Shown here in pieces: positions 23,574 through 63,605 of a DNA stretch of 64,000 bases (position 1 is its first letter; each line of letters opens with the position of its first letter). The translations under genes and the position numbers were made by a program. The notes beneath the pieces are model-generated. The model was given only the letters and a program-made list of their open reading frames with translations. It was not told the origin of the DNA and made no database searches. The stretch is from Hoeflea sp. IMCC20628 (GTDB taxonomy: Bacteria > Pseudomonadota > Alphaproteobacteria > Rhizobiales > Rhizobiaceae), in assembly GCF_001011155.1 (NCBI RefSeq), contig NZ_CP011479.1, positions 62,001 to 126,000 of the forward strand, given 5' to 3'.

Positions 23574-24054
23574 TCCGTGGGGTCTCTTTCCAGAACTGTA
23601 TCGATGAGGCGGCGCAGTATATTCTTCAACCGATCCATTGGGTCGGCAAAAGCTCTGATCTTCTCGTTTGAACATGCGTCTTTCAATGAATCACGCCGCC
23701 GTGTCGTCACCGGGTTGCTGGTTCAACGCGGCCGCTTTCAACAATTGATAATAAGTACCAGATGGACCAACAGATGGAACTGCCGCGAACAGAAATGTGC
23801 CTCCTATGTGACCTTCTGGCCGACTGCTCATTTTGTAAGGCTTGGACAAACTGGACTGGCAACGCAATAGTCATTCATGATGGCTCAGAATGAGCACCGA
23901 TAACAATGCCAGACCAATGCAACTGACGCCATTTGCCGAGTTCTAGCTGCGGTAAAATCGAGCGCGGCAAATTTTGCTTGCCCTTAAATCGAACAAACGT
24001 TAGAAAAAGGCGAGAACTGCGACCCGCGCCAAGGCAGGTCCAAAGGAGGACGAT
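23574..24054. other. 481-bp intergenic region between the two catabolic clusters
   Basis: No gene is convincing here. Frames that cross it are antisense extensions of the sulfatase. It carries promoters reading in both directions, and the TetR-type operator at 23988-24005 lies near its right end. Composition is less GC-rich than the genes. I see nothing recognisable in 23700-23980. Confidence 0.6.
23988..24005 (+). promoter_or_regulatory. TetR-type operator, copy 1, over a promoter
   Basis: ATCGAAC-aaac-GTTAGAA matches the 18-bp inverted repeat at 13 of 14 arm positions. It precedes the gene at 24055 and so the etf and CoA-transferase genes. A -35 TTGCCC (23978-23983) and -10 TAGAAA (24001-24006) are 17 bp apart, with the -10 inside the right half-site, so binding would block RNA polymerase. 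Confidence 0.75.
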
Positions 24055-24399
24055 ATGGGTAAATACAATTTGATAGCGCTTACCAATCCTGTTGAAGGAC
24101 GCGACGACGAGTTCAACGACTGGTATACGAATGAGCATCTCGATGATGTTCTCAAGCTGCCGGGGATGATGGCGGCGCAGCGGTTTTGCCTCAACGATGT
24201 GCAGCATCGCAAGGGTCCGCTGGAATGGAAGTATATGGCGGTCTATGAGATCGAGATTGATGACATCTCCGAAACGCTGAGCGCGCTCACGGCTGCAAGC
24301 GGAACAGATGCGATGAAGCTGTCACCGGCACTGTCGGACCAGCGAATGGTGTGGATCTACAAGCCGATCACCGACCGTGTCGAGCGTCCCGAATCCTGA
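24055..24399 (+). CDS. Small dimeric alpha/beta barrel protein, DUF4286/EthD-like
   Basis: A 114-residue protein with the opening KYNLIALTNPVEGRDDEFN and DWYTNEHLDDVLKLPGMMAA, which is the ferredoxin-like pattern of the EthD and DUF4286 groups (a Trp-Tyr-x3-His motif after the first strand). Such proteins act as small hydrolases, oxygenases or stabilising partners in degradation pathways, but this one has no assigned reaction. CAAAGGAGG precedes the ATG. It is the first gene downstream of operator copy 1 and is followed 79 bp later by etfB. Confidence 0.7.
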   Translation: MGKYNLIALTNPVEGRDDEFNDWYTNEHLDDVLKLPGMMAAQRFCLNDVQHRKGPLEWKYMAVYEIEIDDISETLSALTAASGTDAMKLSPALSDQRMVWIYKPITDRVERPES

Positions 24400-24478
24400 G
24401 CCATTGGCGTATCCGCGACAATTGCCACTGGTTTGTTCCCGGTGGCGTAGGTAACACATATTACGGAAGGGCAATCCG

Positions 24479-25228
24479 ATGAAAATTCTCGTGCCGGTCA
24501 AGCGGGTGGTTGATTACAACGTCAAGATCCGGGTGAAGTCCGATGGCAGCGGCGTCGATCTGGCCAATGTGAAGATGTCGATGAATCCGTTCGACGAGAT
24601 CGCCATCGAGGAAGCGCTGCGTCTGCGGGAAGCCGGCAAGGCCACCGAAGTGATTGCCGTGTCGATCGGACCGGCCAAGGCCGAGGAAACCCTGCGCACG
24701 GCACTCGCCATGGGCGCCGACCGGGCGATTCTGGTTGAAGTCGACGGCATCGTCGAACCGCTCGCTGTTGCCAAGATCCTCAAGGTCATCGCCGCCGAGG
24801 AAAATCCGGATCTGGTGATCCTCGGCAAGCAGGCGATTGATGATGACGCCAACCAGACCGGCCAGATGCTCTCGGCATTGCTCGGCTGGAGCCAGGCCAC
24901 CTTCGCCTCCAAGGTCGAAATCGGCGATGGTTCTGCCGATGTCACCCGCGAAGTCGATGGCGGGTTGCAGACCATTTCGGTCAAGCTGCCGGCCATCGTC
25001 ACCACCGATCTGCGCCTCAACGAGCCGCGCTACGCCTCCTTGCCCAACATCATGAAGGCCAAGAAGAAGCCGCTCGACAAGAAGACGGCGGCTGATTACG
25101 GCGTCGACACCGCGCCGCGGCTCGAGGTGATCAAGACCGAGGAACCCGGCGGCCGCAAGGCAGGCGTCAAGGTCGCTTCGGTGGCCGAACTGGTCGACAA
25201 GCTCAAGAACGAAGCAGGCGTGCTGTAA
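24479..25228 (+). CDS. etfB: Electron transfer flavoprotein, beta subunit
   Basis: The AMP-binding subunit of ETF, 249 residues, the usual length. [19 protein letters not shown] opens it, followed by [16 protein letters not shown] and [16 protein letters not shown], all diagnostic. ETF accepts electrons from acyl-CoA dehydrogenases in the cytoplasm and passes them to ETF-quinone oxidoreductase. No gene for that oxidoreductase is in the window. Four acyl-CoA dehydrogenases follow under the same operator type, so this ETF copy probably serves them. Confidence 0.96.
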
Positions 25229-25251
25229 GCGCGGGAAAGGAAGATCATACC

Positions 25252-26181
25252 ATGGCCATTCTCATACTAGCCGAACACGACCACGCCTCGCTGTCCGATC
25301 AGACCGCCAAGGCCGTCAGCGCCGCATCCCAGATTGGCGGCGACGTGCATGTGCTTGTTGCCGGCAAGGACGCCAAACCAGCAGCCGATGCAGCAGCCAA
25401 GCTCGACGGCGTCTCCAAGGTGCTGCTGGCCGAAGGCGATGAATACGCCAACCGGCTTGCCGAACCGCTGGCCGCTCTGGTTGTCTCGCTTGCGGGCGAC
25501 TACGACACGCTGATGGCGCCTGCGACAACGTCGGGCAAGAACGTCATGCCGCGGATTGCAGCGCTTCTGGATGTCATGCAGATCTCCGACATCATCGAGG
25601 TGATCTCGGTCGACACGTTCAAGCGTCCGATCTATGCCGGCAACGCGCTGCAGACCGTCAAGTCGAGCGATGCCAAGCGCGTCATCACGGTGCGCACGGC
25701 CACCTTCTCCGCTGCCGGCGAAGGCGGATCAGCCTCGGTTGAAACCATTGCATCTGCCGGCGATCCGGGCCTGTCCTCCTTCGTCAAGGATGCGATTGCC
25801 ACCAGCGATCGTCCGGAACTGACCTCGGCCAAGATCATCATCTCGGGCGGACGTGCGCTTGGATCATCGGAAAAGTTCCAGAGCGTCATCCTGCCGGTGG
25901 CCGACAAGCTCGGTGCCGCCGTTGGTGCATCCCGCGCCGCGGTCGATGCGGGCTATGCGCCCAATGACTGGCAGGTCGGTCAGACCGGCAAGGTGGTTGC
26001 CCCGGATCTCTACATTGCCTGCGGAATTTCGGGCGCCATCCAGCACCTGGCCGGCATGAAGGACTCCAAGGTCATCGTCGCCATCAACAAGGACGAGGAA
26101 GCGCCGATCTTCCAGGTCGCCGACTACGGTTTGGTCGCGGATCTGTTCGAAGCACTCCCCGAACTCGAAAAGGCGCTTTGA
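25252..26181 (+). CDS. etfA: Electron transfer flavoprotein, alpha subunit
   Basis: The FAD-binding subunit of ETF, 309 residues. The C-terminal FAD domain is complete: [11 protein letters not shown] near residue 200, [20 protein letters not shown] near 225 and [16 protein letters not shown] near 263. It lies 23 bp after etfB and ends one base before the start of the CoA-transferase gene, so the three are co-transcribed. Confidence 0.96.
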
Positions 26182-26182
26182 G

Positions 26183-27403
26183 ATGAGCCAGAACCGTGGC
26201 GCGCTTGCGGGATTGAAAGTCATCGACCTGACGCAAATGCTGGCCGGTCCCTATTGCACCATGCTTCTGGCGGACCAGGGGGCCGATGTTATCAAGATCG
26301 AGCCGATCAATGGTGATCCGACCCGCACCTTCGGACCGTTTCCCGCTGATGATACCGAGCATCATTTCGGCGGCTATTTCCAAAGCACCAACCGCAACAA
26401 GAAAAGTGTCGCCATTGATCTCAAAAGCGAGGAAGGCAAGCTGCTGTTTCGGCGACTCGCCCGCGATGCAGATGTGGTGGCCGAGAATTTCCGCGCCGGC
26501 GTGATGGATCGTCTGGGCATCGGCTATGAAATACTTGCAGCCGAAAACCCGAAACTGGTCTATGCGGCGATCCGCGGGTTCGGCGATCCGCGCACTGGCG
26601 CAAGTCCCTATGTTGACCGGCCGGCCTTTGATGTGGTGGCGCAAGCCATGGGCGGTGCGATGGGGGTGACAGGGCCCGATGCGCAGACACCGATGAAGAT
26701 CGGCCCGGGTGTCGGGGACATCTTTCCAGCAGCGCTGGCCGCTTTCGGAATCATGGCTGCGTTGCGTCATGCCGAAAAGACGGGCGAGGGCCAGTTCGTC
26801 GATGTCGCCATGTATGACGGAATCGTCGCCATGTGCGAGCGCATCATTTACCAGCAATCCTACACCGGTAGATCGCCAGTGCCTGAGGGTAACCAACACC
26901 CGATCCTGTGCCCGTTCGGGACCTTTTCGGCACGCGACGGTCAGGTGACCGTCGGTTGTCCGCGGGATTCGTTCTGGGGTGAACTCACGACGATCATCGG
27001 GCGCCCGGAACTTGGGCAAGATCCGAAGTTTGCCACCAACAATGCGCGGCTCGCCCACTCAGCCGAGACGATTGCCATCGTCGAGGACTGGACCAGTGTC
27101 AGAAGCAAGTCGGAGATTGCGCTGGCGCTCGATGGACGAGTTCCGTTCGGACCGGTCAATACGGCGGAAGACATCTTCGCTGACCCGCACATGGCAGCGC
27201 GGCAGATGCTGGTTGAGGTCGAGCATCCGGGGTCGTCCAAGCCGGTCACCATCGCCTCGACCCCGGTGCGGATGACCAAGACACCGGGTGGCGTGCAGCA
27301 CCGTGCGCCGCTGACCGGTGAAGATACGTTCGGCATCCTTGAATCCGCCGGCCTGACAAAAGACGAGATTGCCGATCTGAAGCAGCGCAGTATCATCGCC
27401 TGA
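26183..27403 (+). CDS. Class III (CaiB/BaiF) CoA-transferase
   Basis: A family III CoA-transferase of 406 residues that moves CoA between acids through an aspartyl-CoA intermediate. The N-terminus GLKVIDLTQMLAGPYCTMLL and DQGADVIKIE is diagnostic, and the catalytic residue is Asp179 in GPGVGDIFPAAL. It starts one base after the etfA stop. In this setting it may activate the substrate using CoA from a product. Family members also include alpha-methylacyl-CoA racemases, but the length and the loop near Asp179 favour a transferase. Confidence 0.92.
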   Translation: MSQNRGALAGLKVIDLTQMLAGPYCTMLLADQGADVIKIEPINGDPTRTFGPFPADDTEHHFGGYFQSTNRNKKSVAIDLKSEEGKLLFRRLARDADVVAENFRAGVMDRLGIGYEILAAENPKLVYAAIRGFGDPRTGASPYVDRPAFDVVAQAMGGAMGVTGPDAQTPMKIGPGVGDIFPAALAAFGIMAALRHAEKTGEGQFVDVAMYDGIVAMCERIIYQQSYTGRSPVPEGNQHPILCPFGTFSARDGQVTVGCPRDSFWGELTTIIGRPELGQDPKFATNNARLAHSAETIAIVEDWTSVRSKSEIALALDGRVPFGPVNTAEDIFADPHMAARQMLVEVEHPGSSKPVTIASTPVRMTKTPGGVQHRAPLTGEDTFGILESAGLTKDEIADLKQRSIIA

Positions 27404-27457: not shown

Positions 27458-27769
27458 CTACCGAATGGGTGAGAAACTGGTTGGCTTCATGATCATCGAT
27501 TCCATTTTCTGGATGTAGCCGGTGGTCTTGGGGCCAAACGCGATCCAGGCCGGTTCGGCGTAGAGCTTGGCGCGTAGTTCATCACGCTCAGCCATATCCT
27601 TGTAGCCCCACATGGTAATGACCTGATTGAGCGGGCCGATATCGGATACGAAATAGCCAAGCATATTGAGGTGTTTGGTGTGCAAGGCCAATCCTTCAGC
27701 CTCGTAGATCGCCAGAAACTCCTGGGTCTTGCCTGGATGAAGGGTGTAGGTGCGCTTTTCAATAATCAT
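27458..27769 (-). CDS. NIPSNAP-family protein
   Basis: A 103-residue dimeric alpha/beta barrel protein. MIIEKRTYTLHPGKTQEFLA followed by LGYFVSDIGPLNQVITMWGY is the family pattern. The ATG at 27769 has GGGAGAG before it and gives the normal N-terminus; a frame from 27784 adds five residues. It is divergent from the acyl-CoA dehydrogenase, and operator copy 2 lies between them. Bacterial NIPSNAP genes often sit in degradation operons with no known reaction. Confidence 0.83.
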   Translation of the reverse strand: MIIEKRTYTLHPGKTQEFLAIYEAEGLALHTKHLNMLGYFVSDIGPLNQVITMWGYKDMAERDELRAKLYAEPAWIAFGPKTTGYIQKMESMIMKPTSFSPIR

Positions 27770-27850: not shown

Positions 27851-27868
27851 ATCAAACGAATGTTAGAA
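27851..27868 (+). promoter_or_regulatory. TetR-type operator, copy 2
   Basis: ATCAAAC-gaat-GTTAGAA matches the repeat at 12 of 14 arm positions. It lies between the divergent NIPSNAP and acyl-CoA dehydrogenase genes. TAGAAA at 27864-27869 in the right half-site has the position used as a -10 at copies 1 and 5, although the -35 is poor. Confidence 0.65.
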
Positions 27869-27948: not shown

Positions 27949-29085
27949 ATGGTTGAGCGGACATTGTTCACGGATGAGCACGAAATGTTCCGGGATTCGG
28001 TACGGCGTTTTTTCGAACGTGAACTGGCCCCCCATCACGCCCAATGGGAAAAGGACGGCCAGGTTCCGCGCTGGGCATGGACCAAGGCCGGAGAACTGGG
28101 TTTTCTCTGTGCGTCCATCCCCGAGGAGTGGGGCGGAGTCGGCGCGGATAGGCGCTATTCGATCATTCTGATGGAAGAACAGGCTCGCCTCAATCTGACC
28201 GGCCTCGGGTTCGCGCTCCATTCCGACATCGTTGCACCCTATATCCACCACTACGGGACGGAAAAGCAGAAGCTCGGATGGTTGCCGAAAATGACCAGCG
28301 GCGAATGCATCACCGGCATTGCCATGACCGAACCAGGTGGCGGATCGGATCTGCAAGCGATCAAGACGACAGCGGTGCGTGAGGGTGACGAGTATGTGAT
28401 CTCGGGCCAGAAGACTTTCATCACCAACGGTCAGACCGCCGACATGTTTCTGGTTGCCTGCAAGACCGACCGTTCGGAAGGCGCGCGTGGCATCAGCCTG
28501 ATTGCTGTGGAAGCGAACCGTCCGGGATTCGAACGCGGCAGGCGACTCGAGAAACTCGGCACCAAGGCGCAGGATACCTCGGAGCTGTTTTTCAACCAGG
28601 TCCGCGTTCCGGTCACCAATCTGATCGGTGAAGAGGGCAAGGGCTTCGCCTACATGATGCAGGAACTTGCCTGGGAGCGGATGCATGTCGGTATCCAGGC
28701 CGTGTCATGCTGCGAAGCTGCACTCGAATGGACCATCGAATACACCAGGGACCGGAAAGCTTTCGGCAAGTCGATCATCGATTTTCAGAACACGCGGTTC
28801 AAATTGGCCGAAATGAAGACCGAAGTGCAGGTCGGCCGGATCTTTCTGGACCGCTGTCTTGAACTGGTTCTCGAAAACAAGCTCGACACCACCACGGCGG
28901 CAATGGTCAAGCTCTGGACCAGCGAGATGCAGGGCAAGGTGCTCGATGAGTTGCTGCAATTGCACGGCGGCTATGGCTTCATGTGGGAGTATCCGATCAC
29001 CCGCGCCTATGCTGATGCGCGGGTTCAGCGGATCTATGCCGGGACCAACGAGATCATGAAAGAACTGATCGGCCGTACGCTGTAG
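27949..29085 (+). CDS. Acyl-CoA dehydrogenase, LCAD/IVD-like
   Basis: A flavoenzyme of 378 residues that makes the alpha-beta double bond of an acyl-CoA and passes electrons to ETF. GIAMTEPGGGSDLQAIKTTA and QKTFITNGQTADM are FAD and substrate motifs. The usual Glu of the YEGT motif is absent: it reads IYAGTNEIMKELI. A Glu in CCEAALEWTIEYTRDR instead takes the place used as catalytic base by long-chain and isovaleryl-CoA dehydrogenases. The ATG at 27949 has GGAG seven bases before it; a TTG frame at 27943 is less likely. This base position suits long or branched acyl chains. Confidence 0.93.
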   Translation: MVERTLFTDEHEMFRDSVRRFFERELAPHHAQWEKDGQVPRWAWTKAGELGFLCASIPEEWGGVGADRRYSIILMEEQARLNLTGLGFALHSDIVAPYIHHYGTEKQKLGWLPKMTSGECITGIAMTEPGGGSDLQAIKTTAVREGDEYVISGQKTFITNGQTADMFLVACKTDRSEGARGISLIAVEANRPGFERGRRLEKLGTKAQDTSELFFNQVRVPVTNLIGEEGKGFAYMMQELAWERMHVGIQAVSCCEAALEWTIEYTRDRKAFGKSIIDFQNTRFKLAEMKTEVQVGRIFLDRCLELVLENKLDTTTAAMVKLWTSEMQGKVLDELLQLHGGYGFMWEYPITRAYADARVQRIYAGTNEIMKELIGRTL

Positions 29086-29101: not shown

Positions 29102-29986
29102 TCAGCCACGCGCTGGAAGGGATGCCAGCCGTTGCTTTGCGAAATCTCGCCAGAGTACAGGGGCACGGCCGGTGATCCGGGCGACATCGTCGAATACGGC
29201 ATCGGCCAGCGGCTGCGGTTCGGCCTCGAGAGCTGTTACGCCCTCTGCCAGGCCTGCGGCATAGGCGGGCTCCATGCCCTGCTTGAGAAGCAGCGGCAGA
29301 AGTTCGGCTGCGGGCCGCGGACGATATTGCACCGGCGCTCCGGTGACTTCGGTCAGCACGGATGCGAGATCGGGGAAGTTCAGGGCCTCGACAGCCAGTG
29401 AGTGGGTCTGGTTGATATGGGTGGCCGGAGACTTCAGCGCTTCGCCGGCAACCGCGGCCATGTCGTCGGACGAGATCCACGACACTTTTCTGCTTCCGAT
29501 AAAGTGCACCAGCCCGTCGGGCCGGTGCATGAAGCCGTTCCAAACCGTATCCATGAAGAAATTTGGGCGAAGATGCGTCCAATCGAACCCCATCGCCTCG
29601 ATCGTCCGCTCGATTACCTGATGCCAGGCGAAATGTGCATGGGTCGTGTCGTCTGGGGCTAGTGCGCCGAGATGAACGATATGACGCACACCCGCTGCCT
29701 TTGCGGCGTCGAGCAAGCGCTTGGAATGGACAATCATGTCGACGCTGTATCCGGTGGAGAGGAAAACCGCGTCGACGCCATCAAGAGCGGGCGCGAGGCT
29801 TGCCGGATCGTCATAGTCGAAATGAACCGGATGATGATTCTGGTCGCGCAACGCCATGGCGGCCTTGTCGCTGCGCGCAGCGCCGAGCAGCTCGATTCGC
29901 CCTTCGACGGCGTCATTCGACAGATAGCGCATCAGCGCGCCACCCACAGTTCCGGTGGCGCCGGTAACGAGAATGCGACGGCCCAT
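29102..29986 (-). CDS. NAD(P)-binding NmrA/atypical SDR-family protein
   Basis: A 294-residue Rossmann protein. RILVTGATGTVGGALMRYLS at the N-terminus is the atypical-SDR glycine motif, followed by GVDAVFLSTGYSVDM and VRHIVHLGALAPDD. It lacks the Tyr-x3-Lys site, as expected of the NmrA-like group, which either reduce quinones or act as redox sensors. It is convergent with the acyl-CoA dehydrogenase (16 bp) and divergent from the EamA transporter, sharing operator copy 3. Confidence 0.85.
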   Translation of the reverse strand: MGRRILVTGATGTVGGALMRYLSNDAVEGRIELLGAARSDKAAMALRDQNHHPVHFDYDDPASLAPALDGVDAVFLSTGYSVDMIVHSKRLLDAAKAAGVRHIVHLGALAPDDTTHAHFAWHQVIERTIEAMGFDWTHLRPNFFMDTVWNGFMHRPDGLVHFIGSRKVSWISSDDMAAVAGEALKSPATHINQTHSLAVEALNFPDLASVLTEVTGAPVQYRPRPAAELLPLLLKQGMEPAYAAGLAEGVTALEAEPQPLADAVFDDVARITGRAPVLWRDFAKQRLASLPARG

Positions 29987-30038: not shown

Positions 30039-30056
30039 TTCTAACGGATGTTCAAA
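30039..30056. promoter_or_regulatory. TetR-type operator, copy 3
   Basis: TTCTAAC-ggat-GTTCAAA matches the repeat at 13 of 14 arm positions. It lies between the divergent NmrA-like and EamA genes. On the EamA side a TTGACA (30023-30028) is close upstream; on the other side TAGAAT is available as a -10 inside the half-site. Confidence 0.7.
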
Positions 30057-30078: not shown

Positions 30079-31014
30079 ATGTCCATGACAGAAATACCCG
30101 CCCCCCGTCCGGCCCCCGGCCTGACGGAATATGCCCTGCTGCTTGCTCTCGGAATTACGTGGGGTACATCTTACCTGTTCACCAAGGTCGCGGTGGCTGA
30201 GGTCACCCCGTTTACGCTTGTTGCAGTCAGGACCACCATCGCCGCCGCCTTGCTCTTGCTGTTGATTGGCCTGCAGCGCGGGCGGGTTTCGCTCACGTTG
30301 CGTGACTTGGCGGCCTTCGCGCTCGTCGGGCTGGTCAGCAATGCACTGCCGCTGTCGCTGATCTCGCTTTCAGCTTCCTATGTCGACAGTTCGGTGGTCG
30401 CCACCAGCATGGCGTTGGTGCCACTCATCACCATGTGCCTGACCATGCTGAGCGGTCAGTATCCGACTCGGCGTGCCGTCCTGGGAATTGCCATAGGATT
30501 GGTGGGAATCGGTATTCTGTTCGGTCCCTCAGCGTTTCTGAGTTTTGGTGACAGTGCCAAGGGCGCGCTCTGTGCGCTTGGCGCATCGGTCGTGTTTTCC
30601 TGTTCCCTGATTGCCATGGGGCTTGTTCGTCATCACGGTTCCATGCAGGTGGCGGCGTTTTCCCTGGTTGCCGCCGCGGTCTGGTCAGTTCTGATGACGC
30701 TGGTTTTCGAAGGTTTGCCGACAGCTTTGCCAAGCCACAAGGTCATGGCGGCGGTGATCGTGCTTGCGGTGCTCAACACCGGTTGCGCCAGCTTGTTGCT
30801 GTTCGCGCTTGTCCCGCGGGCCGGCGCATTGTTCACATCCATCAACAACTATCTGGTGCCGGTGATCGCTCTGCTGTGCGGCGCGGTTTTTCTCGCAGAG
30901 CAACTGACGGCGCAGAAAATTTGGGGCGTGGCTGTTGTGTTGGCGGGCATTGCCGTGTCGACGTTCCGGCGACGTCCGGTGGCTGTACAACAGCAGACGC
31001 CACCGCCGGCATGA
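30079..31014 (+). CDS. EamA/DMT-family transporter
   Basis: An inner-membrane protein of 311 residues with ten predicted transmembrane helices in two EamA repeats (about residues 15-150 and 165-300). LLALGITWGTSYLFTKVAVA near the start and the second-repeat end ALLCGAVFLAEQLTAQKIWG are characteristic. Most family members export metabolites or small amines. Its operator places it in the same regulon, where it may move a pathway intermediate. The start could also be the ATG at 30085. Confidence 0.9.
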   Translation: MSMTEIPAPRPAPGLTEYALLLALGITWGTSYLFTKVAVAEVTPFTLVAVRTTIAAALLLLLIGLQRGRVSLTLRDLAAFALVGLVSNALPLSLISLSASYVDSSVVATSMALVPLITMCLTMLSGQYPTRRAVLGIAIGLVGIGILFGPSAFLSFGDSAKGALCALGASVVFSCSLIAMGLVRHHGSMQVAAFSLVAAAVWSVLMTLVFEGLPTALPSHKVMAAVIVLAVLNTGCASLLLFALVPRAGALFTSINNYLVPVIALLCGAVFLAEQLTAQKIWGVAVVLAGIAVSTFRRRPVAVQQQTPPPA

Positions 31015-31050: not shown

Positions 31051-31068
31051 TTCGAACAAGTGTTAGTT
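31051..31068 (+). promoter_or_regulatory. TetR-type operator, copy 4, over a promoter
   Basis: TTCGAAC-aagt-GTTAGTT matches the repeat at 13 of 14 arm positions. A -35 TTGTGG (31041-31046) and -10 TAGTTT (31064-31069) are 17 bp apart, the -10 lying in the right half-site. It heads the SDR gene at 31162. Confidence 0.72.
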
Positions 31069-31979: not shown

Positions 31980-31997
31980 ACCGAACAAACGTTAGAA
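31980..31997 (+). promoter_or_regulatory. TetR-type operator, copy 5, over a promoter
   Basis: ACCGAAC-aaac-GTTAGAA matches the repeat at 12 of 14 arm positions. A -35 TTATCA (31970-31975) and -10 TAGAAT (31993-31998) are 17 bp apart. It heads the operon that starts at 32032 and runs to 38800. Confidence 0.72.
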
Positions 31998-32943: not shown

Positions 32944-32945
32944 TC

Positions 32946-33820: not shown

Positions 33821-33823
33821 ACA

Positions 33824-34990: not shown

Positions 34991-35000
34991 GGATCAGCTG

Positions 35001-35420: not shown

Positions 35421-35421
35421 T

Positions 35422-36657: not shown

Positions 36658-36679
36658 TTTGGCAGAACAGGAATACGAC

Positions 36680-50540: not shown

Positions 50541-50549
50541 GGAAAGCAA

Positions 50550-53503: not shown

Positions 53504-53506
53504 GAC

Positions 53507-54715: not shown

Positions 54716-54790
54716 GGTTTCCTCCACTTGTTGCGATCAGGTGATCGCAGGTTGCTCCCGTTTCGTCTGCCAAATGGCAGCCGAAGCTTG

Positions 54791-55828: not shown

Positions 55829-56700
55829 CAGATTCGCTCGATTTCCTTGGCGCCAAACAGACCGGTGGGCCGGAAGAGCAGCACCAGAAGGACGAGGATG
55901 TAAGGGGTGATTTCGCGGAATTCGCTGCCAATGAACAAGCCTGTGACGGCTTCAAGCCAGCCGATGATGAGGCCAGCCACTAGGACGCCACCGATGGAGT
56001 TCATGCCGCCAAGGATGACCACCGACAGGACATTGAGTGCGACGGCACCGAGATGTGGCGTCAATGAATTCACATTGGCCATAAGAATGCCGCTGATGCA
56101 GCCGGTCATCGCCGCGATTGCCCAGGCAAAGGCCACGATCTTGCGGACGTCTATCCCCATCGAATAGGCGGTAATCTGGTCAGCAGCCGCTGCCCGCAGT
56201 GCCACGCCGGCGCGGGAATAGCGCAGGAAGGCAATCAGGCTGAGGACAATTACGACGGCTATGGCAAAGGCGCGGGCGGTCTTGCCCGGTATGAACAGGT
56301 CGCCGATCCAGACAGGGTCGCGGGCCAGGATCGCCGGGATCTGAAGCTCGTTGGCTCCCCAGATCATCGCCATGATGCCGCGCAGGATCGAACCGATGCC
56401 GAAGGTGACCATGACAATAGCGATGTAGGGGCGCCCGGCCATGGGCCGCAATGCAAAGCGTTCAATCAGCAGCGCTATGATCACCGAACCGACAAGCGCA
56501 GCAACCAGGCCAAAGAAAATGCCGAAGGAGAAAGTGACGGCCGCTGTGTAGAATATATAGGCAGACATCGTCATCATTTCACCGGCGGCGAAATTGAAAG
56601 TCTGGGAAGATTTGAAAATCACCACGATGCCGAGAGCGATGAGCGCGTAAACGCCGCCTGCGGCGATTCCGACTGCTGAGTATTCTAGAAAATATGCCAT
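55828..56700 (-). CDS. Branched-chain-type ABC importer permease, LivH-like
   Basis: An inner-membrane permease of 290 residues with about eight helices. GIAAGGVYALIALGIVVIFK at the N-terminus, FNFAAGEMMTMSAY and the loop RAAAADQITAYSMGIDVRKI are typical. It starts 10 bp after LivG on the same strand. Confidence 0.94.
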   Translation of the reverse strand: MAYFLEYSAVGIAAGGVYALIALGIVVIFKSSQTFNFAAGEMMTMSAYIFYTAAVTFSFGIFFGLVAALVGSVIIALLIERFALRPMAGRPYIAIVMVTFGIGSILRGIMAMIWGANELQIPAILARDPVWIGDLFIPGKTARAFAIAVVIVLSLIAFLRYSRAGVALRAAAADQITAYSMGIDVRKIVAFAWAIAAMTGCISGILMANVNSLTPHLGAVALNVLSVVILGGMNSIGGVLVAGLIIGWLEAVTGLFIGSEFREITPYILVLLVLLFRPTGLFGAKEIERI

Positions 56701-56710
56701 GTTCAGGTCC

Positions 56711-57502
56711 CTATTCCGCCGCTACCGATGAGGTTTCTTCCTCATCCCCGACGCCGAGATAGGCGTTGATGACTTCAGGATTGGTTCGGATTTCGTCGGG
56801 TGTGCCCGATGCAATCGGCTTGCCAAAAGAGAGCACCACCACCTTGTCGGAAATTTCCATGACCATGCCCATGTCGTGCTCGATCAGAAGAACCGTTGTC
56901 TGCCAGTTACGGCGGACATCGAGAACGAAGCGGCTCATTTCGCGCTTTTCTTCCCGGTTCATCCCGGCGACCGGCTCGTCAAGAAGCAGAATTTTCGGCT
57001 TCATCACCAAGGCGCGAGCCAACTCGACCCGTTTCTGCAGGCCATAGGAAAGGTCTTCGACCGGGGTGTGGGCAACGTGGTCCAGTTCCAGCAGCCCGAT
57101 GATGTCTCTTTCAATCTCAAGGCCCAGTTCGCGCTCTTCGCGACGGGTCATCGGCAACCGGAAGCCTGCGGACAGTACGCCGCTCTTGAGCTTCGTATGA
57201 GCACCGAGTTTGACATTGTCGAGGACGCTCATGCCGTGAAACAGAGCGATGTTCTGGAAGGTCCGTGACATGCCGCAATAGGCGCGGGCTGCCGGTTTCA
57301 GGCCGGAGATATCCTGGCCGTCCAGAACCACTTTGCCCTGATTGGGTTTGTAGAACCCGGAAATGACATTGAAGAGGCTGGTCTTGCCTGCGCCGTTTGG
57401 TCCGATGACTGCGGTGATTTTTTCCGCCTCGGCATGAACGCTCACGCCACTGAGTGCGTTCACTCCGCCAAAGGAAAGCTGGATGTTATCGACATGCAGC
57501 AT
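56711..57502 (-). CDS. Branched-chain-type ABC importer ATP-binding protein, LivG-like
   Basis: The first gene of the importer operon, an ATPase of 263 residues. Walker A GPNGAGKTS is at 34-42, signature LSYGLQKR at 151-158, Walker B ILLLDEP at 171-177. The signature carries Tyr-Gly in place of Gly-Gly (LSYG), which is the normal LivG variant. Operator copy 9 and a promoter are 105-133 bp upstream of the start. Confidence 0.94.
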   Translation of the reverse strand: MLHVDNIQLSFGGVNALSGVSVHAEAEKITAVIGPNGAGKTSLFNVISGFYKPNQGKVVLDGQDISGLKPAARAYCGMSRTFQNIALFHGMSVLDNVKLGAHTKLKSGVLSAGFRLPMTRREERELGLEIERDIIGLLELDHVAHTPVEDLSYGLQKRVELARALVMKPKILLLDEPVAGMNREEKREMSRFVLDVRRNWQTTVLLIEHDMGMVMEISDKVVVLSFGKPIASGTPDEIRTNPEVINAYLGVGDEEETSSVAAE

Positions 57503-57606: not shown

Positions 57607-57635
57607 ACTCTAACAGTTGTTCGAAAAAATGTCAT
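57607..57635 (-). promoter_or_regulatory. Promoter of the ABC importer operon
   Basis: On the leftward strand a -35 ATGACA (57630-57635) and a -10 TAGAGT (57607-57612) are exactly 17 bp apart. Operator copy 9 lies over the spacer and the -10. Confidence 0.6.
57608..57625 (-). promoter_or_regulatory. TetR-type operator, copy 9
   Basis: CTCTAAC-agtt-GTTCGAA matches the repeat at 13 of 14 arm positions. It lies between the importer operon and the stop of the crotonase-fold gene at 57666, so it serves the importer. Confidence 0.75.
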
Positions 57636-57665: not shown

Positions 57666-58436
57666 TTAACTGCCTGAATATGTTGGCTTATTCTTGTTTA
57701 TGAAGGCCGTCATGGCGGTTCGCCTGTCCTCTGTTTCGAACAGCAGATAGGCTGCGCGACGCTCAAGCATGAGTGCCGCGTCCAGGTTTATTTCCATCCC
57801 TGCGAGCAAGACTTGTTTGATCTCATCCACAGCGAGTGGTGGCATGGCAGCGATGGTCCCTGCGATGGAGATGGCTTCGGCGACGGCGCCATCACCATCG
57901 ACGACCTTGCTGACCAGGCCGGCATCAAAGGCTTCGCGTGCGGACATGGTTCCGGCGGTCAGAAGCATCAGCATGGCGCGATATTTCCCCACTGCCCGGA
58001 CCAGCCTCTGTGTGCCGCCGGCGCCGGGCATGATGCCGAGACGCACCTCTGGCTGTCCAAAAACGGCAGCCTCACCTGCGACGATGATATCGGCATGCAT
58101 GGCGAGTTCGCAGCCGCCACCCAGCGCATAGCCATCGACGGCAGCGATCACCGGTTTGCGGCAAGTACGAATGGCAGCCCAGTTTTGCTCATCGTTGCGT
58201 GCCATCATTTCCGCCGCACCAATATCAACCATGCTCTTGATATCTGCACCGGCGGCAAAGGCCTTCATATCGCCGGTCAGGACAATGGCGCGAATGGAAG
58301 GATCGTCGGAAAGGCGATTGAATTCGTGCCTCAGTTCAGCGCGCAATTCCGGGCTGAGCGCGTTGCGCGCTTCTGGCCGGTTGAGCCGAAGAAGTGCGAC
58401 ATGCTCTACGGGGTAGTCCACTAACACAAGATTCAT
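57666..58436 (-). CDS. Enoyl-CoA hydratase, canonical catalytic residues
   Basis: A crotonase-fold hydratase of 256 residues. It has both glutamates: Glu110 in GYALGGGCELAMH and Glu130 in FGQPEVRLGIMPGAGGTQR, twenty residues apart as in the rat enzyme. The oxyanion motif is AFAAGADIKSM. It would hydrate a 2-enoyl-CoA to the (3S)-hydroxyacyl-CoA. This is the only one of the three crotonase-fold proteins with a complete site. It diverges from the Mcl-like gene, sharing operator copy 10. Confidence 0.93.
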   Translation of the reverse strand: MNLVLVDYPVEHVALLRLNRPEARNALSPELRAELRHEFNRLSDDPSIRAIVLTGDMKAFAAGADIKSMVDIGAAEMMARNDEQNWAAIRTCRKPVIAAVDGYALGGGCELAMHADIIVAGEAAVFGQPEVRLGIMPGAGGTQRLVRAVGKYRAMLMLLTAGTMSAREAFDAGLVSKVVDGDGAVAEAISIAGTIAAMPPLAVDEIKQVLLAGMEINLDAALMLERRAAYLLFETEDRRTAMTAFINKNKPTYSGS

Positions 58437-58478: not shown

Positions 58479-58496
58479 TTCTAACGCTAGTTAGAT
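58479..58496. promoter_or_regulatory. TetR-type operator, copy 10
   Basis: TTCTAAC-gcta-GTTAGAT has a perfect CTAAC / GTTAG core. It lies between the divergent hydratase gene and the Mcl-like operon. A TAGAAT -10 is available in the leftward direction. Confidence 0.75.
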
Positions 58497-58602: not shown

Positions 58603-59532
58603 ATGTCACCGAAACCAAAAAGATTGAGACGCTGTCAGTTGGCGGTCCCGGGCAGCAGCGTCAAAATGATGACCAAGGCTGCGTCGCTTGATGTGGACCA
58701 TATCTTTCTCGATCTTGAGGATGCAGTCGCACCGGATGCCAAAGTTCCGGCGCGCGCCCAGATCGTCAAGGCACTCAACACGTTGGATTGGGGCGCGAGC
58801 GTACGCTGTGTCCGTATCAATGATCTCGATACCAAATACGCCTATGAGGACATTATTGAAGTGGTGGAGGGGGCTGGCGCCAACCTCGACACAATTCTGG
58901 TGCCCAAGGTCAAGTCGGCCTGCGATGTGCGGTTCGTCGAAAGGCTGCTGTCGCAGATCGAACTCAAGCTTGGATTGACGCGGAAAATCGGCATCGAGGT
59001 GCTGATTGAAGAAGCCGAGGCAATCATGAAAGTCGAGGAAATCGCGGGCGCGTCTGATCGGCTCGAGGCGCTTGTTTTCGGCATGGGCGACTATTCAGCC
59101 TCACAGGGGATCGACCCTTATGCCGTGTCCGGGGACACGGGATATCCGGGCGATATCTGGCATTACGCGCGTTACAAGGTGATTGTCGCCGCGCGTAGCT
59201 TCGGCCTTGACGCCGTTGATGGTCCGTTCGTCAATTTTCGCGACGGCGACTATTTCCGCACCGAGTGCCGACGTGCCAAGCAACTCGGCGCGGTTGGCAA
59301 GTGGGCGATCCATCCCAGCCAGATCAGCATTGCCCAGGAAGTGTTCAGCCCGACCCAGGCCGAAGTCGACAAGGCGCACAAAGCGGTTGCCGCCTACCGG
59401 GAGGCGCAGGCGCAGGGTCTGGGCGCGATCCAGGTTGATGGGCAAATGGTGGACGTGGCAACGGTTCGCCTGGTCCAGGGGATCATTGACCAAGGCGAAG
59501 CCATCGGCATGAAGCCTTCCGCAGGCGTGTAA
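58603..59532 (+). CDS. HpcH/HpaI-family CoA-ester lyase, malyl-CoA/beta-methylmalyl-CoA lyase-like
   Basis: A metal-dependent retro-Claisen lyase of 309 residues. RRCQLAVPGSSVKMMTKAAS, IFLDLEDAVAPDAKVPAR, VLIEEAEAIMKVEEIAGAS and GKWAIHPSQISIAQEVFSP match the known L-malyl-CoA/beta-methylmalyl-CoA lyase (Mcl1) of Rhodobacter closely, including length. That enzyme splits malyl-CoA to glyoxylate and acetyl-CoA, or beta-methylmalyl-CoA to glyoxylate and propionyl-CoA. The mesaconyl-CoA hydratase-like gene is next. Start at 58603 with AGGAG upstream; a frame from 58525 is rejected. Confidence 0.88.
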   Translation: MSPKPKRLRRCQLAVPGSSVKMMTKAASLDVDHIFLDLEDAVAPDAKVPARAQIVKALNTLDWGASVRCVRINDLDTKYAYEDIIEVVEGAGANLDTILVPKVKSACDVRFVERLLSQIELKLGLTRKIGIEVLIEEAEAIMKVEEIAGASDRLEALVFGMGDYSASQGIDPYAVSGDTGYPGDIWHYARYKVIVAARSFGLDAVDGPFVNFRDGDYFRTECRRAKQLGAVGKWAIHPSQISIAQEVFSPTQAEVDKAHKAVAAYREAQAQGLGAIQVDGQMVDVATVRLVQGIIDQGEAIGMKPSAGV

Positions 59533-59560
59533 GCCCCAAAGGTTTGCCTTCCAGATCAAT

Positions 59561-59588
59561 CGAGATAGCCGCTCGTCCGGCTATCTCG
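59561..59588 (+). other. Perfect 11-bp intergenic stem-loop
   Basis: CGAGATAGCCG and CGGCTATCTCG pair fully around a CTCGTC loop in the 96-bp gap between the lyase and the hydratase genes. No T-run follows. It may set the level of the downstream genes. Confidence 0.6.
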
Positions 59589-59628
59589 CTGCCGGAGAAT
59601 TTTCGGCGCGAGACAGGTGTGAAAAGCG

Positions 59629-60702
59629 ATGACAAAAGCGTCCGAAGGCAACTTCTTCGAAGATTTCAGCCCAGGAATGAGCATATCTCATGCGGTGCCG
59701 CGCACGGTGACCACGGGAGACGTTGCCATGTATAGCGCATTGTACGGCATGCGCTTTGCGGTTCAGTCCTCCGACGCATTCGCCCAGAGTTGCGGGTTGC
59801 CGCGGGCGCCGCTCGATAATCTTCTGCTGTTTCATGTGATTTTCGGGAAAACCGTGCCGGATGTGTCGCTCAATGCCGTTGCCAATCTCGGCTATGCGGA
59901 GTGCCGGTTTCTCACACCTGCCTGGCCGGGCGACAGCTTTCATGCACGCAGCGAAGTCATCGGCGTGCGTGAAAATTCCAACGGCAGCACCGGCATCGTC
60001 TATGTCCGGTCGACGGGCTACAATCAGCATGGCGATGCGGTGCTGAGTTTTGTCCGATGGGTCATGGTCAACAAGCGGGACAAGACTTCGCCCGCGCCGC
60101 AGACCGTCATCCCCGAACTTGCGTCCCACGTTCCTGCCGGCGAACTTGCCATGCCCGAGGCGCTGGATTTTTCACGCTACGACCCGGTTCTGGCGGGCAG
60201 CCCGTACTGCTTCGACGACTACGAGATCGGCGAGAAGATCAACCATATCGACGGCATGACGATAGAAGAAGCCGAGAGCCAAATTGCCACGCGGCTATAT
60301 CAAAATACAGCGAAGGGGCACTTTGACGCTGTATTGCAGCGCTCAAGCCGCTTTGGCCGAAGGATTGTGTATGGCGGCCACGTCATGAACCTGGCGCGGT
60401 CGCTGTCCTTCAACGGGTTGGCCAATGGCGCATTTGTTGTCGCCATCAATGGCGGGCGTCACGTCAATCCTGCCGCTGCCGGAGATACGGTCTATTGCTG
60501 GTCCGAGGTTCTGGGCAAACAACCGGTTGCCGGTCGAACGGATGTCGGCGCTCTCCGGGTGAGAACAGTGGCGACCAAGGACAAGCCATGTGCTTCGTTT
60601 CCCGACCCGGCGACAGACGATTCCGGATCGGTGCTGCTCGATCTTGATTACTGGGTGTTGATGCCGCGGCATTGCGGCGAAGATCGCGGTGAAAGCCAGT
60701 GA
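59629..60702 (+). CDS. MaoC-like dehydratase, mesaconyl-CoA hydratase (Mch)-like
   Basis: A double hot-dog protein of 357 residues. GNFFEDFSPGMSISHAVPRT, FAQSCGLPRAPLDNLLLFH, FGKTVPDVSLNAVANLGYAE and GRRIVYGGHVMNLARSLSF are strikingly like mesaconyl-CoA hydratase of the ethylmalonyl-CoA pathway, which converts mesaconyl-CoA to beta-methylmalyl-CoA. It follows the Mcl-like lyase that cleaves that product, so the two form a consecutive pair. As it sits outside the ethylmalonyl-CoA pathway genes, a related substituted substrate is also possible. Confidence 0.87.
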   Translation: MTKASEGNFFEDFSPGMSISHAVPRTVTTGDVAMYSALYGMRFAVQSSDAFAQSCGLPRAPLDNLLLFHVIFGKTVPDVSLNAVANLGYAECRFLTPAWPGDSFHARSEVIGVRENSNGSTGIVYVRSTGYNQHGDAVLSFVRWVMVNKRDKTSPAPQTVIPELASHVPAGELAMPEALDFSRYDPVLAGSPYCFDDYEIGEKINHIDGMTIEEAESQIATRLYQNTAKGHFDAVLQRSSRFGRRIVYGGHVMNLARSLSFNGLANGAFVVAINGGRHVNPAAAGDTVYCWSEVLGKQPVAGRTDVGALRVRTVATKDKPCASFPDPATDDSGSVLLDLDYWVLMPRHCGEDRGESQ

Positions 60703-61736
60703 GTGTTTTGTCGGACGCGTTGCAGTTTCCCTACGACCAGGCTCCTGTCCCCGGCGAGGTGACGGAAATCGCCGAAGGGCTGTACTGGGCCTACCTGCCG
60801 CTGCCGTTCCAGCTCAATCACGTCAATGTCTGGTTGTTGAAGAACGAAGATGGCTGGACAGTCATTGATACCGGGTGCGTCACGCCGGCCATCAAGGAGT
60901 GTTGGGAAAAGCTGCTTGCAGGGCCGATGCGCGGGGAGCCGGTGCGCACCCTGATCGCAACCCATGGACATGTTGATCATATCGGCCTTGCCGGCTGGCT
61001 GGTCGACCGGTTCGGGGCGGAATTTGTCGGTACTTTCGGTGAGTGGAACTGGGCTCGCATCAGTCACACCCGCGATATTCCCGGCTCGAACTCCGAACAT
61101 CACCGGTTCATGCTCAACCACGGATTTGACAAGGCAGGTGCCGAGTTGATGCTGACCAGCCGTCACCGTTTCATGGACATGGCGACCACAATACCGGGAG
61201 CGATCACCGAAATCAGGGATGGTCAGACCATCCACTTCGGCCAGCGCGACTGGCGTGTGATCGTGACCCGCGGCCATGCCTACGAGCATGCTTCGTTTTA
61301 TTGTGAACGTGACAATATCCTGATCGCCGGGGATCATTTGCTGCCCAGGATCACACCGGTGATCGCCGTGTACGAGATGTTGCCGAATGCCGATCCGCTG
61401 GGCGATTATCTCGACTCATTCGCACAGTTTTCCGACCTTCCCGACGATGTGCTGGTGCTGCCGTCGCATGGTCGGCCCTATCGCGGTATTCACGTTCGGA
61501 TCAAGCAGTTGCGGGACCACCACACTGAACGGCTGGACGCCACGATCAGCCATCTGCGTCAGCCGCAACATGCGCTGTCGCTTTCGAAAGTCATGTTCCC
61601 GCACGTGGAAGGGCCGGAGAATATAGGCTTCGCTCTCGGAGAGGTTCTGGCCCACATAAATTATCTGGTTCACGATGGCGTTGTCGGCGCTGTCAGCGAC
61701 GAGCAGGGTCACATGATTTACGAGAGCCTTGCCTGA
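60699..61736 (+). CDS. MBL-fold metallo-hydrolase
   Basis: A metallo-beta-lactamase-fold hydrolase of 345 residues with the metal motif THGHVDHIGLAGW near residue 90, RGHAYEHASFY near 195 and IAGDHLLPRITP. A C-terminal helical region follows from about 265. The GTG start overlaps the preceding stop. It may hydrolyse a CoA thioester or a lactone of the pathway; many such proteins in CoA operons are thioesterase-like. Confidence 0.88.
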   Translation: MSVLSDALQFPYDQAPVPGEVTEIAEGLYWAYLPLPFQLNHVNVWLLKNEDGWTVIDTGCVTPAIKECWEKLLAGPMRGEPVRTLIATHGHVDHIGLAGWLVDRFGAEFVGTFGEWNWARISHTRDIPGSNSEHHRFMLNHGFDKAGAELMLTSRHRFMDMATTIPGAITEIRDGQTIHFGQRDWRVIVTRGHAYEHASFYCERDNILIAGDHLLPRITPVIAVYEMLPNADPLGDYLDSFAQFSDLPDDVLVLPSHGRPYRGIHVRIKQLRDHHTERLDATISHLRQPQHALSLSKVMFPHVEGPENIGFALGEVLAHINYLVHDGVVGAVSDEQGHMIYESLA

Positions 61737-61777
61737 TCCCGTATTTCCCTACCCCCTTAACAGAATCCGGTCCTGTC

Positions 61778-62653
61778 ATGCAGTCTTCAATCCGACCCCG
61801 TCGTTCCGTTCTCTACGTTCCCGCTGCCAACGCTAAGGCAATGGCCAAGTCCGGCACACTCGATTGCGATGCCATTGTCTACGATCTCGAGGATGCGGTT
61901 GCTCCGGGCGCAAAAGCCGACGCCCGCGAGGCGCTGAAGGCGTATTTTGACGCCAATCCATCCTCGACGAAACAGCGGGTCATTCGTGTGAATGGCGCCG
62001 GGACAGAATGGGGCGCTGAGGATTTCAAAGCTGCGGCCGCCTGCCGGCCGGATGCGATTCTTTTGCCAAAGGTCGAGCATCCGCTGGGCATTCTGAGTGC
62101 GGCTGCGGAGCTTGATCGGCTGGGGCTGGAGGGGGTGCAATTGTGGGCCATGATCGAAACCCCGCTCGGCATTGTCAATATCGGTGATATTGCGCGTCTT
62201 GGCGCCCAGCCGGACTCGCGACTGGTGTGTTTCGTCGTCGGCTCCAACGATCTCGCCAAGGAAACCGGCGTGCCGCTTCCAAAAGGCCGCTCAACGCTGT
62301 TGCACTGGTTGCTGCAGGTTGTCATCCATGCCCGCGCCTATGGGCTGGATGTTGTGGATGGTGTCTACAATGATTTTCGCGATCAGGCTGGATTTGAGGC
62401 GGAATGCGAGGAGGGTGTGGTTCTGGGTTTTGACGGCAAGACCCTCATCCATCCCTCGCAGATAGCCTTTGCCAATCAGGCGTTTGCACCGTCGCCTTCC
62501 GAGCTGGCTGAGGCGCAACGCATTGTTTCAGCGTTTGCGCAGCCCGAGAATACCGACAAGGGGGTGATTGCGCTCGAGGGAAAAATGGTCGAGCGCCTGC
62601 ACCTTGATATTGCCCGGAAAACGCTTGCGAAGGCGGGATCTACGCAGGCGTAA
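61778..62653 (+). CDS. CitE-like CoA-ester lyase/thioesterase, (3S)-malyl-CoA thioesterase (Mcl2)-like
   Basis: A second HpcH/HpaI-family protein, 291 residues. RRSVLYVPAANAKAMAKSGT, VYDLEDAVAPGAKADARE, IRVNGAGTEWGAEDF, WAMIETPLGI and GFDGKTLIHPSQIAFANQAF match the known Mcl2 thioesterase, which frees malate from malyl-CoA after the Mcl1 reaction, more than citrate lyase beta. Together with the lyase and hydratase upstream it copies the ethylmalonyl-CoA pathway trio. Citramalyl-CoA lyase is a serious alternative. Confidence 0.86.
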   Translation: MQSSIRPRRSVLYVPAANAKAMAKSGTLDCDAIVYDLEDAVAPGAKADAREALKAYFDANPSSTKQRVIRVNGAGTEWGAEDFKAAAACRPDAILLPKVEHPLGILSAAAELDRLGLEGVQLWAMIETPLGIVNIGDIARLGAQPDSRLVCFVVGSNDLAKETGVPLPKGRSTLLHWLLQVVIHARAYGLDVVDGVYNDFRDQAGFEAECEEGVVLGFDGKTLIHPSQIAFANQAFAPSPSELAEAQRIVSAFAQPENTDKGVIALEGKMVERLHLDIARKTLAKAGSTQA

Positions 62654-62706
62654 TTTGTGCCGGGTCGGTTCCGCGACAGGCGGTCTAAGTCAAGCTTGGG
62701 AGTGCT

Positions 62707-63540
62707 ATGATGAATGTAACTTTTGATTTCACGGGAAAGGTCGTTCTGGTCACTGGAGCGGCGTCGGGAATAGGACGCGCCACGGTCGAGGCGCTGGTCG
62801 AGGCTGGCGCGGCGGTGGGTATTGCAGACATTCAGGGTGACGAGGTTGAAGCCTTGGCACAGACTATTCGCGGGCAGGGCGGGGCGGTCGTTGGACTCCC
62901 GCTTGACGTACGTGATGCCACCGCAACGGAGCGGGCGGTTGAAACCCTCGAGGCAGAGCTGGGGCCGATTTTCGGTCTCGTCACGGCCGCCGGCCTGTCG
63001 CGGCCTGCTCCTGCTGAAGACATGAGTGAAGCCAGTTGGGATCTGGTTATGGACACCAATCTGAAGGGCATGTTCCTGTCGTGTCAATCGGCCGGCCGGC
63101 GCATGCTCGACCATGGCGCGGGCGCCATCGTCAATATCGGATCTGTCAATTCTCTCGGCGGGTTTGCCGGCCGGTCGAATTACTGTTCGTCTAAATTCGG
63201 CGTGGCTGGCCTGACCGATGTCCTGGCGATCGAGTGGGGCAGGCGTGGCGTGCGCGTCAACGCGGTTGCACCGAACGGCGTGGATACGCCTCTGGTGCGC
63301 CAGGGAATCCCGCCCAAGTTTGTCACAGACGTGCTCGACGACCGGACGCCGATGGGGCGTATGGCGCTTCCCGGCGAGATCGCATCAGTGGTGCTGTTTC
63401 TGCTTTCCGATGCGGCGTCCTATGTTTCCGGCAGCATGCTCCGCGTCGATGGCGGGCTTTGCTCGGGCTTCTACACCCGCAGCCAGGGTGCGGATCTGGC
63501 CTCTGCGGCGCTTTTGCGGGACGGCGTCTACTCAGAATGA
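62707..63540 (+). CDS. Short-chain dehydrogenase/reductase (SDR)
   Basis: A classical SDR of 277 residues, slightly long because of a C-terminal tail (SGFYTRSQGADLASAALLRD). TGAASGIG is near residue 17 and the active site is YCSSK near 160. TTGGGAG precedes the ATG. Last gene of this operon before operator copy 11. Confidence 0.89.
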   Translation: MMNVTFDFTGKVVLVTGAASGIGRATVEALVEAGAAVGIADIQGDEVEALAQTIRGQGGAVVGLPLDVRDATATERAVETLEAELGPIFGLVTAAGLSRPAPAEDMSEASWDLVMDTNLKGMFLSCQSAGRRMLDHGAGAIVNIGSVNSLGGFAGRSNYCSSKFGVAGLTDVLAIEWGRRGVRVNAVAPNGVDTPLVRQGIPPKFVTDVLDDRTPMGRMALPGEIASVVLFLLSDAASYVSGSMLRVDGGLCSGFYTRSQGADLASAALLRDGVYSE

Positions 63541-63571
63541 GTTGCTAATCGATTTGGCTCTTGAGCTTCAA

Positions 63572-63600
63572 TTGACAGGGTTCAAAAATCTAACTATCGT
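63572..63600 (+). promoter_or_regulatory. Promoter of the binding-protein gene
   Basis: A consensus -35 TTGACA (63572-63577) and -10 TATCGT (63595-63600) are exactly 17 bp apart, overlapped by operator copy 11. The same TATCGT stands at copy 6. Confidence 0.65.
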
Positions 63601-63605
63601 TCGAA
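63588..63605 (+). promoter_or_regulatory. TetR-type operator, copy 11
   Basis: ATCTAAC-tatc-GTTCGAA matches the repeat at 13 of 14 arm positions. It precedes the binding-protein gene at 63628. Confidence 0.78.

Follow-up and report, generated by a model that had tools for sequence, protein, structure and literature searches.

A palindromic operator repeated across a catabolic island of Hoeflea sp. IMCC20628 and its predicted TetR-family repressor

We analysed a 64,000-nucleotide stretch of the Hoeflea sp. IMCC20628 genome (contig NZ_CP011479.1; C1:62001-126000 of a 5.12-Mb, three-contig genome), referred to below as the window. It carries a catabolic island in which eleven copies of an 18-bp palindrome, the proposed operator, precede runs of acyl-CoA-related and uptake genes, together with a gene for a TetR-family regulator. 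All eleven copies were found at the positions given by the first-pass annotation of this DNA and, as it had stated, all (11/11) lie outside gene calls. The TetR gene, placed there between copies 7 and 8, is located between copies 6 and 7, and copies 7 and 8 share the TetR/ECH2 promoter. The ten transcription units that had been counted correspond to ten intergenic regions holding the eleven sites; as four of these regions are divergent, the number of transcript starts may be as high as 14. The operators (given without strand) and the regulator gene are listed here, with the number of further genomes in which an orthologous site was found.

23988..24005, operator copy 1, 49 bp before hyp114-etfB-etfA-CoA-transferase; 7/7 genomes
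27851..27868, operator copy 2, between hyp103 (-) and acyl-CoA dehydrogenase (+); 7/7 genomes
30039..30056, operator copy 3, between NmrA-like gene (-) and EamA transporter (+); 7/7 genomes, beside NmrA
31051..31068, operator copy 4, upstream of SDR1; 7/7 genomes
31980..31997, operator copy 5, upstream of the SDR2-MaoC-MaoC-thiolase-OB-ACAD-CoA ligase operon; 2/7 genomes
38813..38830, operator copy 6, upstream of the ECH-ACAD-AMP ligase-PrpD-SDR-ACAD operon; 7/7 genomes
45791..46411, minus strand, TetR-family regulator (PF00440 and PF17932), proposed binder of all copies
46477..46494, operator copy 7, TetR/ECH2 divergent promoter; one copy in this promoter in each of the seven genomes
46505..46522, operator copy 8, same TetR/ECH2 promoter, 28 bp from copy 7
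57608..57625, operator copy 9, 105 bp before the first ABC uptake operon; 7/7 genomes
58479..58496, operator copy 10, between ECH3 (-) and the CitE1 operon (+); 7/7 genomes
63588..63605, operator copy 11, 22 bp before the second ABC uptake operon; 2/2 genomes showing that operon nearby

The pattern TTC(T/G)AAC-N4-GTT(C/A)GAA, under which the copies had been described, if taken literally matches exactly only at 38813, and the other ten copies carry one or two mismatches. A better consensus is WTCKAAC-N4-GTTMGAW, to which four of the eleven sites conform exactly. Allowing up to three mismatches, the literal pattern gave 16 matches in the window vs. 4.36 expected, a count reached by none of 100 shuffles. 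With a symmetric matrix derived from the eleven sites, their own scores were 20.2-26.0 and the next best window position reached 11.1, so that nothing else there scores 14 or more. Leave-one-out scores of the eleven were 18.2-25.0, and the maxima in 60 Markov sequences of window length averaged 12.9, the highest being 19.2. No site of at least 14 was found in the flanks beyond the window (20 kb to the left and 19 kb to the right). At the 63588 site the frame of the downstream gene is open upstream across the site (444 codons), and AGGAGG stands just before the called start at 63628.

Across the whole genome, WTCKAAC-N4-GTTMGAW has four matches without mismatch, all inside the window. We scored with the matrix 21 candidates outside it, namely 13 one-mismatch matches and nine matches to a relaxed pattern, one being common to both sets. 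A single candidate, C1:4030795, stood out with a score of 23.9; it immediately precedes a TRAP transporter operon (DctP, DctQ, DctM, DctP). The other 20 scored no higher than 17.7. In a test for stop-free frames, 11 of 12 outside loci lay in frames of 295-911 codons and the TRAP site in one of 32 codons, in a measure that separates coding from noncoding DNA poorly, the eleven window sites themselves giving 29-444 codons. A weaker additional site may exist among the two-mismatch matches of the genome, beyond the 21 candidates scored. In the TRAP operon (L069 6796-11362, from C1:4030795 onward) two DctP-type genes flank the Q and M genes, one on each side.

We then compared 36 related loci, 19 of which (L029-L047) have TetR orthologues at 59-80% identity and 17 distant TetRs. 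The orthologue loci belong mostly to Hyphomicrobiales, some to Acetobacteraceae and Rhodospirillales, and one to a betaproteobacterial metagenome-assembled genome. With no more than one mismatch, the operator was present in 19/19 orthologue loci vs. 0/17 distant-TetR loci, and in all 19 it is found upstream of the tetR gene. The promoter of this gene is the place where the Hoeflea window differs in copy number, with two copies (46477, 46505) against a single copy scoring at least 15 in each of the 19 orthologue loci. Of 200 column-permuted matrices, none reached the window matrix upstream of tetR in 21 of the 27 loci tested, including 19/19 of L029-L047 and, from eight distant homologues (at most 53% identity), L074 and L093. 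A second matrix, built from the best tetR-upstream site in each of the 19 orthologue loci (8 distinct sites, none taken from the window), ranked the eleven sites as the top eleven of the window, with scores from 26.6 to 11.8 and the next position at 11.5, so that the last of them (30039) is marginal; since the tetR-upstream sites had originally been picked with the window matrix, this test is independent in sequence and not in the choice of motif.

Promoters were compared one by one in the flanks of seven of the 19 orthologue loci, with a site threshold of 17. The island is largely syntenic in these seven genomes, and eight of its ten site positions are kept in all of them: before hyp114/etf, between ACAD1 and hyp103, between TetR and ECH2, and before NmrA, SDR1, ECH1, livG and CitE1. 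Alongside the copy 1 orthologues the etf genes are unmatched in three of the seven genomes and hyp114 in one; alongside those of copy 10, ECH3 is unmatched in three. The copy 3 orthologue is weaker in two of the seven genomes, at 18.0 and 17.2, where the EamA gene also went unmatched. An extra strong site precedes an SDR7 relative in two genomes (L102 13491, score 24.6; L103 6514, score 25.8), at a place where the window has none. L072, with a TetR 53% identical, also has sites (12402-15503), which lie about an SDR and an acyl-CoA dehydrogenase in another gene setting.

Every whole genome with an orthologue (17/17, representing 17 of the 19 loci) contains the exact pattern, in 57 forward matches vs. 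3 for the reversed pattern. From the order at large we sampled 397 genomes: 92 have the exact pattern and four have the regulator (42-100% identity), two of these four with exact matches. The island itself is rare, as a close relative of ACAD3 (E <= 1e-150) occurs in 1/397 order genomes, the source genome itself. No relative was found in the viral contigs searched. Taken together, the presence of the operator in 19/19 orthologue loci and at orthologous promoters of seven further genomes indicates that it travels with the local TetR, and the regulon proposed on first pass is supported at the level of sequence comparison.

The regulator has a TetR DNA-binding domain (PF00440, 61.7 bits) and a PF17932 domain (79 bits), and its AlphaFold model is all-helical with a mean pLDDT of 88.4. 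Its recognition helix, GS(I/L)YYHY, is found in 19/19 orthologues, preceded by A in 18 and by P in L035; it is similar in further homologues, with YYYY in L072. Two sets of loci uncouple the regulator from the island. At the betaproteobacterial locus L046 identity is 59% for the TetR and no more than 37% for the island-like neighbours, yet sites scoring 20.9 and 28.2 are present. Homologues were also examined in 5 of 65 plasmid records. On plasmids of Roseibium, Sagittula and Nitratireductor (L093-L095), TetR homologues at 39-41% identity lie among carboxylase-type genes, and sites scoring 16.0-18.9 start 41-45 bp before their own TetR start; further sites of 19.5-22.8 lie about 2.3 kb upstream, between divergent genes in Roseibium and Sagittula. 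Because the operator stands upstream of the regulator even where the neighbouring genes differ, these comparisons support its association with the local TetR, the predicted binder.

We consider it highly probable that the eleven palindromes and the site at C1:4030795 are operators of the TetR encoded at 45791-46411. This protein would repress about 48 genes, its own included (all genes in the run behind each site being counted), and a CoA thioester would probably release it. A TetR dimer would bind WTCKAAC-N4-GTTMGAW and repress its own gene and some 47 others, including ligases, dehydrogenases, hydratases, the thiolase unit, the electron-transfer flavoprotein and two ABC and one TRAP uptake systems. 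Autoregulation is predicted from the two operator copies at the TetR gene. A CoA ester is the likely ligand in view of the gene context: an early thioester of the pathway, made by the regulon's AMP-forming ligases, would probably bind the C-terminal domain and release the protein. The fold matches of the TetR model include the acyl-CoA-binding regulators FadR, AibR (with isovaleryl-CoA) and KstR2. Some promoters, a minority, suggest blocking of RNA polymerase as the mode of repression. A -35-like TTGAC lies 16 bp before the site start in 4/17 window and TRAP contexts and in 8/70 contexts of the orthologue loci; as the operator there would overlie spacer and -10, this suggests repression by occlusion in the promoters that have such a box.

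Several observations weigh against this interpretation. At two or fewer mismatches the genome has 155 matches vs. 149 for the reversed pattern, and the relaxed exact pattern gives 18 vs. 29 for its reversed control; these counts are at background, so only the matrix gap separates the sites. The first-pass annotation had itself named matches in unrelated genes at background frequency as a test of its proposal, and they do not refute it at high scores, the background level being confined to the loose search. The highest Markov score, 19.2, tops two or three of the lowest leave-one-out values. Nor is the exact pattern rare, as it occurs in 90/393 order genomes without a regulator match at threshold. 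The site before SDR2 (copy 5) is kept in just 2/7 genomes. Upstream of the distant tetR homologues, the window matrix was reached by 1/200 permuted matrices in each of L073, L094 and L095, and it did not stand out from them in L072 (7/200), L092 (5/200) and L096 (41/200). The last two, plasmid homologues of Polaromonas and Rhodococcus, have no site of at least 15 (best 14.8 in L092 and 13.9 in L096) and nevertheless keep AGSxYYHF in the recognition helix. The distant-TetR control loci hold three sites scoring at least 18, in two Planococcus loci. DarR, which binds c-di-AMP, and the drug-binding QacR are also among the fold matches, so the ligand class is not fixed by the fold. As regards the Planococcus loci more generally (L048-L051, TetRs 26% identical), moderate sites occur at similar places (TACGAACAAACGTTTGAT type, 14.5-18.3, and one of 20.3), and these are perhaps another operator of like shape.

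Three other explanations were considered. The sites could be genuine operators of a different regulator, with the local TetR a bystander; the genome has five PF17932 genes, four of them paralogues of the local TetR, and binding by the latter is a prediction. Yet none of the four paralogue loci has an operator copy at 0 or 1 mismatch, the three paralogues that could be aligned have other recognition helices, and the motif adjoins a TetR of the local type in L046 and L093-L095 though the other genes differ. In this comparison, which covered the PF17932 paralogues among the TetRs of the genome, the bystander explanation thus appears improbable. About equally improbable is that the TetR binds the sites as an activator, or together with a second regulator, and not as a plain ligand-released repressor. 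The TetR family has both activators and repressors (PMC13104628), and the small share of contexts (4/17) with a recognisable -35 at a fixed distance would leave room for activation; where a -35-like box exists, however, the operator sits at the expected -10, and autoregulation from a divergent promoter is how repressors are usually arranged.

We give practically no weight to the third explanation, in which the repeats arise by chance or composition, or resemble an SOS box, and have nothing to do with the pathway. The actinobacterial LexA box is resembled by TCGAAC-N4-GTTCGA, and GC-type versions of the motif do occur in many genomes without the regulator; among the matches listed, many of the background ones are of this type, ATCGAAC..GTTCGAT. 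All eleven sites, however, precede genes of one catabolic island, and no DNA-repair gene was seen among the identified targets, a gene context on which a LexA/SOS function was rejected. Chance and composition are rejected by the clear score gap, the shuffles and the promoter-by-promoter conservation, and contradicted also by the orthologue-matrix test. Control by the local TetR is retained as the preferred reading in what follows. The genes placed under the sites are listed below.

24055..27403, plus strand, hyp114, etfB, etfA, CoA-transferase family III
27458..27769, minus strand, hyp103, small gene at a regulated promoter, conserved in the island
27949..29085, plus strand, acyl-CoA dehydrogenase 1 (ACAD1)
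29102..29986, minus strand, NmrA-like NAD(P)-binding protein
30079..31014, plus strand, EamA-family transporter
31162..31917, plus strand, SDR1
32032..38800, plus strand, SDR2, two MaoC-type hydratases, SCP2-like thiolase, ChsH2-type Zn-ribbon/OB protein, acyl-CoA dehydrogenase 2, ATP-grasp (ADP-forming type) CoA ligase
38880..45751, plus strand, ECH1, ACAD3, AMP ligase 1, MmgE/PrpD, SDR3, ACAD4
46575..51284, plus strand, ECH2, AMP ligase 2, SDR4, SDR5, SDR6
52751..57502, minus strand, branched-chain-amino-acid-type ABC uptake system 1
57666..58436, minus strand, enoyl-CoA hydratase 3 (ECH3)
58666..63540, plus strand, CitE1 (malyl/beta-methylmalyl-CoA lyase-like), mesaconyl-CoA hydratase-like protein, MBL-fold protein, CitE2, SDR7
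63628..64000, plus strand, substrate-binding protein of ABC uptake system 2, start only; the system runs past the window end (L070)

Some details of these genes should be added. The small gene hyp114 (24055-24399), conserved at its regulated island promoter, has no Pfam match. The open frame of CitE1 also permits a start at 58525. An open reading frame at 27874-28686 (-) was rejected as spurious, the real gene there being 27949-29085 (+). Between SDR6 and the ABC operon, two adjacent open frames (51524-52481, -), the first with a DDE_3 transposase domain, look like an insertion-sequence remnant inserted into the island; in L030 the genes that flank this region here are only about 100 bp apart. 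A terminator-like inverted repeat at 52681-52711, with perfectly matching 15-bp arms and a loop of one base, lies between the transposase remnant and livF.

As to the enzyme classes, the regulon would contain three ligases (two AMP-forming, one ATP-grasp), three enzymes of crotonase type, a series of SDRs and MmgE/PrpD, with uptake by two ABC systems and, through the twelfth site, a TRAP system. None of the NCBIfam equivalog models was passed by the 30 scanned proteins among the matches listed; the passes listed were to broad subfamily models only (e.g., enoyl-CoA hydratase, long-chain acyl-CoA ligase). The CoA-transferase is related to the succinyl-CoA:mesaconate type, with a score of 468.5 that is below the model cut-off of 700. 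For the mesaconyl-CoA hydratase-like protein, the only full-length match in the genome, the best solved relatives are 4e3e and 8hgn (beta-methylmalyl-CoA dehydratase), and for CitE1 a solved relative is 5ugr; look-ups of the other enzymes returned general ligases and thiolases only. No oxygenase was found among the scanned regulon proteins, a set that comprised all except hyp103 and two proteins of the second ABC system.

From these enzyme classes and the absence of an oxygenase in that set, our guess is that the substrate is a methyl-branched, already oxidised acid. The SDR-MaoC-MaoC-thiolase-OB-ACAD unit with its ChsH2-type OB protein recalls bile-acid side-chain units (PMC11321319, PMC12329534). 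On account of this ChsH2-type OB/MaoC/thiolase unit the pathway may be one of steroid degradation, a reading for which no search aimed at steroid ring genes was made. A wider proposal, which we regard as speculative and rather doubtful as a whole, is that the TetR and TTCTAAC-N4-GTTAGAA form a portable control module across Alphaproteobacteria and one betaproteobacterium, its DNA code unchanged in several homologues down to about 39-41% identity, that becomes attached to different acid-degradation islands. Here it would govern an undescribed pathway, apparently without oxygenases, in which a methyl-branched acid of alicyclic or terpenoid-like type is degraded via a mesaconyl-/beta-methylmalyl-CoA branch to glyoxylate and propionyl-CoA.

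With the predicted regulon, 40 kb of generic dehydrogenase and ligase names would become one defined pathway with a defined control sequence, to which a distant TRAP transporter is joined by the operator alone. It would also offer a route to the substrate, as the compound whose CoA ester releases the repressor, and an operator code usable for annotating related islands in other proteobacteria. The predicted TetR regulon is a solid new case of a known kind, and its acid substrate is the interesting part.

Membership in the KstR, PsrA or FadR groups was considered and rejected, as the model scores are far under the cut-offs: 33 bits vs. 280 for the NCBIfam KstR model, 48.7 vs. 300 for the PsrA model (of Vibrio type, no other being listed; the alignment covers just residues 9-84) and 60.9 vs. 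200 for the curated FadR model (Bacillus type). KstR2, FadR (Bacillus) and AibR share the fold of the local TetR at 20-24% identity in fold alignments, and the structures of FadR and AibR were solved with acyl-CoA ligands. LiuQ and FadP, said to be unique to betaproteobacteria, are likewise TetR regulons of acyl-CoA catabolism from comparative genomics (PMC5343134), a likeness at the level of description. BkaR of mycobacteria, a TetR repressor that controls itself and a branched-chain keto-acid operon, has the operator GTTAnT-N4-AnTAAC (PMC3920632), and PA3973 has another motif again (PMC9736018). Among the matches listed from the open-licence literature searched, we found no published description of the operator.

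Close parallels are KstR and PsrA. KstR (Rv3574), which controls the mycobacterial cholesterol regulon, is also an autoregulated TetR repressor binding as a dimer to a short palindrome and controlling about 80 catabolic genes; its sites are intergenic and numerous, some lie between divergent genes, and one region holds two (PMC1995591). It differs in being actinobacterial and in its operator, TnnAAC-N2-GTTnnA (PMC1995591); the spacer here is 4 and not 2, and the KstR operator TnnAACnnGTTnnA is thus not the one found. PsrA of Pseudomonas belongs to the TetR family, controls acyl-CoA metabolism and has a site in its own promoter, as is the case here (PMC13104628). Its operator is C/GAAAC-N2-4-GTTTG/C, with TTCAAAC-N4-GTTTGAA as the rpoS site (PMC13104628). 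That site shares outer bases and spacer with the present operator and differs at half-site position 4, which is A there and mostly T or G here. Over 69 distinct orthologue sites this position is T in 55%, G in 36% and A in 9%, which sets the operator apart from that of PsrA. As an arrangement the proposed regulon is convincing; though apparently undescribed, it is of a familiar type, one that works like KstR and PsrA.

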